Origin: Pseudomonadota bacterium
Lineage (GTDB): Bacteria > Pseudomonadota > Gammaproteobacteria > Competibacterales > Competibacteraceae
Direction: 5' to 3'
Length of the DNA: 36,174 nucleotides
NCBI GenBank assembly: GCA_018240295.1
Contig: JAFEGB010000345.1
Location: 1-36,174, forward strand
Part shown: positions 10,964 to 28,500 of the stretch, piece by piece
Layout of the letters: every line of letters starts with the position of its first letter
Position numbering within the stretch: the stretch's first letter is position 1
The notes under the pieces: model-generated
The model's input: the letters and a program-made list of their open reading frames with translations, nothing else
The model's database searches: none
Told to the model about the DNA's origin: nothing
Program-made: the position numbers and the translations under genes

Positions 10964-11641
10964 TCAGTCGTCGCTGCCGAGAATGCCGAGCAGCTGCAGC
11001 AGGCTCGTGAACAGGTTGAAGATGTCCAGATACAGCGCGACGGTCGCCATGATGTAGTTGGTCTCGCCGCCGTGCAGGATCGAACTGGTGTCGTACAGGA
11101 TGAAGCCCGACATCAGCATCACGACCATCGCCGAAACCGCAACGTGCAGGCCCGGCACGGAGAAGAACATCGCCGCGAGGCTCGCGACCAGCGCGACGAT
11201 CAGGCCGACGAACAGGAATCCGCCCATGAAGCTGAAGTCTCGGCGCGACACCAGCACGTAGGCCGACAGCGACAGGAAGATCAGGCCGGTCAGGCCCATC
11301 GCCCCCATGACCAGTTCGCCGCCACCCGGCAGCGCCAGGTAACGCGACAGCACCGGGCCGAGCGTGTAGCCCATGAAGCCGGTGAACGCGAACACCGAGG
11401 CCAGGCCCCAGGCGCTGTTGCGCAGCTTCATCGTCAGGAACAGCAGGCCGAACATCCCGACCAGCATCAGCAGCCAGTGCATCGGCGGCGCCTGCGTGAC
11501 GACGGCGAAACCGGCGGTGGCGGCGCTGAACAGCAGCGTCATCGACAGCAGCAGGTAGGTGTTGCGCAGGACGCGATGGCCCTGCACCGTGGACAGCGCA
11601 CCGGTGCGGGCGCCGACCGGCAGCGGTTGATACGAGTTCAT
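10964..11641 (-). CDS. BI-1/YccA family integral membrane protein
   Basis: A 225-residue Bax inhibitor-1 family membrane protein with about seven hydrophobic segments, typical of the YccA/YbhL group. YccA modulates FtsH protease in E. coli and other members act as pH-sensitive calcium leak channels; which role applies here cannot be read from the sequence. Start MNSYQPLPVG is supported by GGAGGT 8 bp upstream. Late segments include FILYDTSSILHGGE and YLDIFNLFTSLLQLLG, the conserved C-terminal family block carrying the acidic residues. It is a monocistronic unit bounded by a promoter at 11715-11742 and a strong terminator at 10908-10931. Confidence 0.9.
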   Translation of the reverse strand: MNSYQPLPVGARTGALSTVQGHRVLRNTYLLLSMTLLFSAATAGFAVVTQAPPMHWLLMLVGMFGLLFLTMKLRNSAWGLASVFAFTGFMGYTLGPVLSRYLALPGGGELVMGAMGLTGLIFLSLSAYVLVSRRDFSFMGGFLFVGLIVALVASLAAMFFSVPGLHVAVSAMVVMLMSGFILYDTSSILHGGETNYIMATVALYLDIFNLFTSLLQLLGILGSDD

Positions 11642-28152: not shown

Positions 28153-28158
28153 GGTGCG

Positions 28159-28211
28159 GCATGCTACTGCCGTACCCGGGCAGGCATGCTTGATCCGGAT
28201 GTCAAGCATGC
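28159..28211. promoter_or_regulatory. Three-box operator of the XRE/S24 repressor
   Basis: GCATGC occurs at 28159-28164, 28184-28189 and 28206-28211, with centre spacings of 25 and 22 bp. Boxes 2 and 3 also form a perfect 10-bp inverted repeat, GCATGCTTGA (28184-28193) and TCAAGCATGC (28202-28211). Box 3 extends to the palindrome AAGCATGCTT. Box 1 is 7 bp upstream of the repressor ATG, and boxes 2-3 overlap the predicted divergent promoter, as expected for autoregulation plus repression of the divergent gene. Confidence 0.7.
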
Positions 28212-28218
28212 TTACCAT
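28190..28218 (+). promoter_or_regulatory. Predicted promoter of the small membrane protein gene
   Basis: TTGATC (28190-28195), a 17-bp spacer and TACCAT (28213-28218) match four of six bases at each hexamer. The spacer holds operator box 3 and box 2 abuts the -35. Transcription would start near 28226, about 65 nt before the proposed ATC start, with a CCGGAG/CTCCGG stem (28232-28253) in the leader. A perfect TTGACA also occurs on the minus strand at 28205-28200, but I found no -10 at proper spacing. Confidence 0.4.
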
Positions 28219-28290
28219 CCTAGCGAAATTTCCGGAGCCGGACCAGTCTCCGGCATCCACAACAACATCATCTGCACAGGGAGGTGTGCC

Positions 28291-28500
28291 ATCGACTTTC
28301 CATCCATCTCCGTCTTCTGGTTCTGGCCTTACCTGATGCTGTCGCTCGGCAGCTCGGTGCTGCTGGTCGGCTGTCTGATGCTGCGGGTGGCCTGGCGTGA
28401 ACACATGCCGGCGCACTACCGCCTGCTCGGCGGGATCGCAGTCCTGGCCGGTCTGGCGATCCTGCTTTGCGCCGGCTGGCTGGGGATCAGGGGCTGCTGA
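28291..28500 (+). CDS. Small two-helix membrane protein, possible ATC start
   Basis: A 69-codon frame with two hydrophobic segments, FWFWPYLMLSLGSSVLLVG (about 9-27) and LLGGIAVLAGLAILLCAGWL (about 44-63), separated by a basic loop (RVAWREHMPAHYR). AGGGAGGTG ends 6 bp before ATC at 28291 and there is no ATG, GTG or TTG in frame at that distance. In-frame alternatives are ATG 28186, which would precede the predicted transcript, and ATG 28336, inside helix 1 without a ribosome site. No family is recognised. Under the repressor's operator it could be a stress- or damage-inducible membrane peptide; that is speculation. Its end overlaps the convergent DUF3293 gene by 14 bp. Confidence 0.55.
   Translation: MDFPSISVFWFWPYLMLSLGSSVLLVGCLMLRVAWREHMPAHYRLLGGIAVLAGLAILLCAGWLGIRGC

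Follow-up and report, generated by a model that had tools for sequence, protein, structure and literature searches.

Between a repressor gene and a small membrane-protein gene in a genome of the genus Plasticicumulans lies what is probably a domesticated immunity region of the P22 type, locked in its repressed state. The window (the whole stretch of DNA that we analysed, 36,174 nucleotides) is one complete contig, C272. Cryptic prophages are the usual place in which domesticated phage repressors are recognised. In the present case, a P22-type operator-promoter unit is detached from any visible prophage and stands in front of what is best read as a resident gene, between fabB and a DUF3293 gene, in two species. 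fabA and fabB flank the locus on one side. On the other come genes for the DUF3293 protein, an enoyl-CoA hydratase, a methyltransferase, a DUF1223 protein and a phosphomannomutase-like protein. Among the ORFs listed for the window, no phage structural or integration gene adjoins the locus. There is a clear pattern to which parts have been kept and which have been lost. If the locus works as we argue below, it is a compact natural case of a genetic switch turned into a one-way latch, and it could show what use a host makes of such a module, or how it copes with one.

The only same-genus relative in the genome collection is Plasticicumulans acidivorans DSM 23606 (G001), and much of what follows leans on it. 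Both genomes have fabB, the repressor gene, the membrane gene and DUF3293 in that order. These two species are the only ones that hold the complete locus, so the evidence from conservation amounts to a single comparison. Features of the locus are collected in Table 1.

Table 1 Features of the repressor-membrane gene locus, in window coordinates
Feature	Coordinates	Strand	Sequence	Basis and remarks
Repressor, 211 aa	27517..28152	-		P22 C2-like HTH (residues 5-67) and S24/CI C-terminal domain; Pfam HTH_3, Peptidase_S24; PHROG 4
OR3 position, box 1	28155..28168		AGTAGCATGCCGCA	25 bp from OR2; degenerate, matrix score -3.6
Putative repressor -10	28161..28166	-	TAGCAT	Predicted; 8 nt before ATG
OR2, box 2	28180..28193		TCAAGCATGCCTGC (read towards repressor)	Predicted operator; matrix score 15.8; identical in P. 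acidivorans
PR-like promoter, membrane gene	28190..28218	+	TTGATC-N17-TACCAT	Predicted from homology; -35 overlaps OR2 edge, -10 overlaps OR1 edge
OR1, box 3	28202..28215		GTAAGCATGCTTGA (read towards repressor)	Predicted operator; matrix score 22.4; P. acidivorans counterpart GTAAGTATGCTTTA
Shine-Dalgarno-like site	28279..28284	+	GGGAGG	Sequence; GGGAG in the same place in P. acidivorans
Small membrane protein, 69 codons	28291..28500	+		Two predicted transmembrane segments (hydropathy); apparent start ATC

Two predicted operators and a third position

The first-pass annotation had read this intergenic region as a lambda-like operator built from three GCATGC palindromes. The hexamers themselves are all there, between the repressor gene and the rightward membrane ORF. 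They occupy 28159-28164, 28184-28189 and 28206-28211; their centres, at 28161.5, 28186.5 and 28208.5, are 25 and 22 bp apart. The perfect 10-bp inverted repeat that had been reported is there too, formed by GCATGCTTGA (28184-28193) and TCAAGCATGC (28202-28211). Hexamer statistics carry the argument only a short way. GCATGC is not enriched in the window (22 copies observed, 31.2 expected), and a triple packed within 53 bp turned up in 4 of 200 dinucleotide shuffles, which makes the hexamers on their own weak evidence. We also considered GCATGC as the motif of a regulon and rejected it: with up to two mismatches allowed, CAAGCATGCTTG has 34 occurrences per strand and its reversed control 31, so a dispersed regulon is absent. 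One perfect CAAGCATGCTTG palindrome stands alone, without a partner, at 1792-1803 of L032 (G000, contig C285:1792), between an integrase-like gene and a gene for a GGDEF-domain protein.

Phage relatives of the repressor provide a longer motif. It is a 14-bp sequence, (G/T)(T/C)AAGNNNNCTTAC-like, whose AAG and CTT arms scarcely vary. Its centre varies among phages, and GCATGC as the recognition box finds no support. IMG/VR contigs encoding related HTH domains carry operators such as GTAAGCATGCTTAC, TCAAGCATACTTTC and GTAAGTTTGCTTAC between the repressor and a divergent cro. Scanning viral contigs with the two-operator DNA pattern alone returned seven of them. In four, L153, L154, L155 and L157, the pattern has a Cro-like gene to its left and a C2-like repressor to its right (L154 is the same contig as L123, and L157 the same as L122). 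L154 also has a second tandem operator, at 10968-10997 on the minus strand, about 900 bp from the first and beside a ParB-like gene. It resembles an OL array.

The scoring matrix was built from 13 phage operators, with no Plasticicumulans sequence in its training. Run over 36,161 window positions, this phage-only matrix gives box 3 rank 1, box 2 rank 2 and box 1 rank 525. None of 200 dinucleotide shuffles reached box 3's score of 22.4, and none had a pair of sites, no more than 30 bp apart, that both scored at least 15. Might the boxes nonetheless be a chance cluster in an intergenic region, with no operator function? GCATGC is, after all, no commoner than expected, and shuffled DNA does yield triples. 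The 14-bp motif derived from phages, its spacing and its conservation in P. acidivorans make this hardly credible; at the level of sequence, chance is refuted for boxes 2 and 3, which look like true 14-bp operators. For the box 1 hexamer, chance is the likely account. The 10-bp inverted repeat is the pair of facing half-sites of two adjacent 14-bp palindromes, OR1 and OR2.

In P22 (operator cores at 38, 61 and 86) and in five IMG/VR phage contigs, OR1 and OR2 are 23 bp apart and OR2 and OR3 25 bp apart. The corresponding distances in the window are 22 and 25 bp, near enough to P22 to assign boxes 3, 2 and 1 to the OR1, OR2 and OR3 positions. P22, with its 23/25 spacing, is the model for this operator array rather than lambda, and these spacings in homologous phages test the array better than the shared helix face that had been invoked for lambda. 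Box 1 has precisely the position expected of OR3. Its arms do not fit the motif, however: it is a bare hexamer whose flanks show no likeness to an operator. Its P. acidivorans counterpart, TGTACCATGCAGGC, likewise scores as background. Of the three operators with lambdoid spacing that had been proposed, then, two match the phage motif and deserve the name; the third position is present but at background, and a working third operator is unsupported.

In P. acidivorans, box 3 is GTAAGTATGCTTTA and box 2 is TCAAGCATGCCTGC, again 22 bp apart. OR1 and OR2 have been kept there while the leader towards the membrane gene diverged, and the intergenic region has otherwise diverged as well. The first-pass annotation had declared in advance that it would be refuted if the boxes were not conserved upstream of orthologous repressors. 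Boxes 2 and 3 come through this comparison; box 1 does not. A genome scan for further clusters had also been proposed, as a way of finding other targets. The window's genome has a single copy of the array, TAAGYATGCTT-N-CAAGYATGC. A looser two-operator pattern picks out the locus in both Plasticicumulans genomes plus one extra match in the window's genome, which is at control level; the conserved array is present once in each of the two genomes. By these pattern searches, the repressor would have one target and no OL.

The repressor and its release

The array was said to adjoin a repressor, and it does. The repressor is of the CI/C2 type, with both a lambda/434/P22-type HTH and the S24 domain in place. 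The protein is a full-length homologue of P22 C2 (33% identity over 97%), and its C-terminal S24/LexA-like fold is recognised by Pfam PF00717 (E=1e-12). We predicted its structure from a six-sequence alignment (pLDDT 82). A fold search with the model put lambda repressor first, the lambda C-terminal domain aligning with a TM of 0.72-0.73 and an rmsd of 2.0-2.1; the N-terminal domain of P22 C2 gave a TM of 0.92-0.94 by target length. A plasmid search found only repressors of less than 60% identity, P22-like and others.

RecA-stimulated self-cleavage goes with a set of residues, Ala-Gly, Ser and Lys, and the window repressor does not have the full set. Aligned with P22 C2, BcepC6B, Shewanella M16-3 and others, it has A93-A94 in place of AG, keeps Ser131 and has Arg169 at the catalytic Lys. 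That Lys is present in all seven phage or prophage repressors compared; both Plasticicumulans species have Arg. The P. acidivorans repressor also has Gly for Ser, and no AG. Its frame contains an in-frame TAG at codon 94 (L002 1780-1782), between the HTH and the C-terminal domain, with the remainder open. Isolated N-terminal domains of the P22 C2, 434 and lambda repressors bind weakly (PMC3991615), so the P. acidivorans copy may be impaired, if the TAG is real.

Selection on the repressor has been uneven. Between the two species, Ka/Ks is about 0.12 for residues 1-68 (Ks near 1) and 0.61-0.66 over the C-terminal remainder. In the neighbouring DUF3293 gene the ratio is 0.59, and in fabB it is 0.2. 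These ratios point to strong purifying selection on the HTH. The C-terminal value of around 0.65 is no looser than that of DUF3293, so part of the contrast between the two halves of the repressor is locus-wide.

All this bears on whether the locus does anything at all. It might be decaying prophage scrap with no present role, which has survived by chance in two related species. The nonsense codon and lost Ser of P. acidivorans would fit such a history, as would an ATC at the start of the window's membrane gene and the finding of a single locus in two species; given that ATC and the TAG, the module may indeed be decaying rather than purposeful. We think scrap possible but unlikely. An HTH Ka/Ks of 0.12 with Ks near 1, and operators kept while the membrane-gene leader diverged, each argue that DNA binding continued after the species split.

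The residues also bear on the most ambitious claim of the first-pass annotation, a bistable or thresholded switch in which binding at all three boxes gives the membrane protein a threshold, or two states. There are indeed three boxes, near-lambdoid in spacing, and box 1 coincides with the OR3 position. A bistable CI/Cro toggle needs two mutually repressing regulators, however, and the locus has one. The locus lacks cro, and the window's genome encodes no relative of the phage Cro. Box 1 is background in both species, and the residues for SOS cleavage are lost. In the dicA/dicC system of E. coli, the closest one to have been studied, stable switching needs the Cro-like partner DicC (PMC10448788). 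Such a switch is very unlikely here.

The reading we prefer, that of a domesticated immunity region locked on, sorts the parts into two groups. Those kept would hold the repressed state: the HTH, OR1, OR2, the PR-like promoter and the placing of OR2 over the repressor promoter. Those lost would have released it: Cro, an OR3 that matches the motif, the cleavage dipeptide and the catalytic Lys. With the release parts gone, SOS is not expected to lift repression: the repressor would be locked on. Derepression would have to come by another route, for example through an antirepressor or if the repressor itself were lost.

The membrane gene and its promoters

How would the latch work? The C2 homologue would bind OR1 and OR2 (boxes 3 and 2), which overlap the PR-like promoter. 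In phages such a promoter reads into cro; here it would now read into the resident membrane gene, and the repressor would keep that gene off or low. Boxes 2 and 3 had been said to cover a predicted divergent promoter, and the homologous hexamers are in place to suggest that they do. The layout is the same in P. acidivorans, and phages L123 and L157 have TTGACA-N18-TACCAT in alignment with it. The hexamers are imperfect, and a strict sigma-70 consensus scan matched no promoter, the PR-like hexamers included.

On the opposite strand, OR2 would sit at the -35 of the repressor's own promoter. The putative -10 is only 8 nt before the repressor ATG (in P. acidivorans, TACCAT is 6 nt before it), which predicts a leaderless transcript. 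From this -10 to the centre of OR2 is 23 bp in the window and in P. acidivorans, and 22 in P22. In the P22 geometry, with OR2 at the -35 of the repressor promoter, C2 stimulates its own synthesis. The locus may therefore have kept a P22-like geometry for positive autoregulation.

A single small membrane protein had been proposed downstream of the array, and the rightward ORF, with its two hydrophobic segments, fits that description. It stands where phages carry cro. Its start at 28291-28293, preceded by GGGAGG at a suitable distance, is ATC in the window and ATG in P. acidivorans, and the next in-frame ATG is at 28336. The ATC is a rare start codon, a sequence error or the loss of the gene's start. 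No significant family was found for the protein in Pfam, PHROGs or NCBIfam. Its profile matches in 3 of 39 family genomes and, across 274 class genomes, in the window only. Homologues come from P. acidivorans (the syntenic ORF, 34% identical) and genus g7 (31%).

In genus g7, which belongs to the same family, the membrane gene (L170 5389-5613) lies beside the DUF3293, hydratase, methyltransferase and DUF1223 genes, behind a non-coding leader of about 350 nt; the locus has no repressor and no operator-like sites. The best reading of these arrangements makes the membrane gene the resident and the phage unit an addition in front of it. fabB is elsewhere in g7, so the phage unit may instead have been lost there.

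Why such a unit should be kept is a separate question from how it works. One tentative answer, unlikely in our view though compatible with the main account, is protection against homoimmune phages: the locked-on repressor would shut their PR, and the membrane gene would be a bystander or a second line of defence. IMG/VR phages do carry GTAAGCATGCTT(A/G)C and TCAAGCAT(A/G)C operators, and the HTH and operators are conserved while the parts for induction are lost. We found no host link, however, between those phages and Plasticicumulans; the phages have a GC content of 54-65%, the window one of 69%. Immunity alone would also give no reason to conserve the putative promoter of the membrane gene, yet it is conserved. 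A more elaborate proposal, and quite an improbable one, is that the immunity region was captured. Selection would have kept the holding parts (HTH, OR1, OR2 and PR) and discarded cro, OR3 and autocleavage. A repressor owned by the host, in a neighbourhood of core genes, would then both confer immunity to homoimmune phages and turn phage antirepression into a signal to express the membrane protein.

Comparison with known systems

Literature searches turned up no account of this locus, and nothing on regulation in Plasticicumulans. The nearest studied parallel to the locked-on region we propose, also in a chromosome, is the dicA-dicC locus of the Qin cryptic prophage of Escherichia coli, where a P22 C2-type repressor without the Ala-Gly bond likewise governs a small protein (PMC10448788). 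DicA is released by an antirepressor. Qin differs in that DicA has 135 aa, dicC is cro-like, there are three operators on both sides, the antirepressor Rem is present and the system is bistable (PMC10448788).

The phage contigs L153, L154/L123, L155 and L157/L122 have OR1 and OR2 nearly identical to those of the locus, and the same layout of promoter-like hexamers. A recognition helix of the VSRAAVSQWE type, as in the locus repressor, occurs in L122/L157, with variants in the others of this set. These contigs differ in being genuine phage loci that have cro. In three of them OR3 directly adjoins the start of the repressor, and the repressors of the set, at 117-145 aa, are too short for an S24 domain.

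The other close system is the right operator of Salmonella phage P22 immC (c2 - OR3/OR2/OR1 - cro). Unlike P22, the locus has no cro, no OL by genome pattern search, a degenerate OR3 and a repressor that has lost its cleavage residues; a membrane gene lies downstream of the PR-like promoter, and no prophage genes are seen beside it. OR1 and OR2 are 23 bp apart in P22 and 22 in the locus. Common to both are AAGNNNNCTT operator cores and the 25 bp between OR2 and OR3. As in P22, OR2 would lie over the -35 of the repressor promoter, and the predicted divergent PR would overlap OR1 and OR2.
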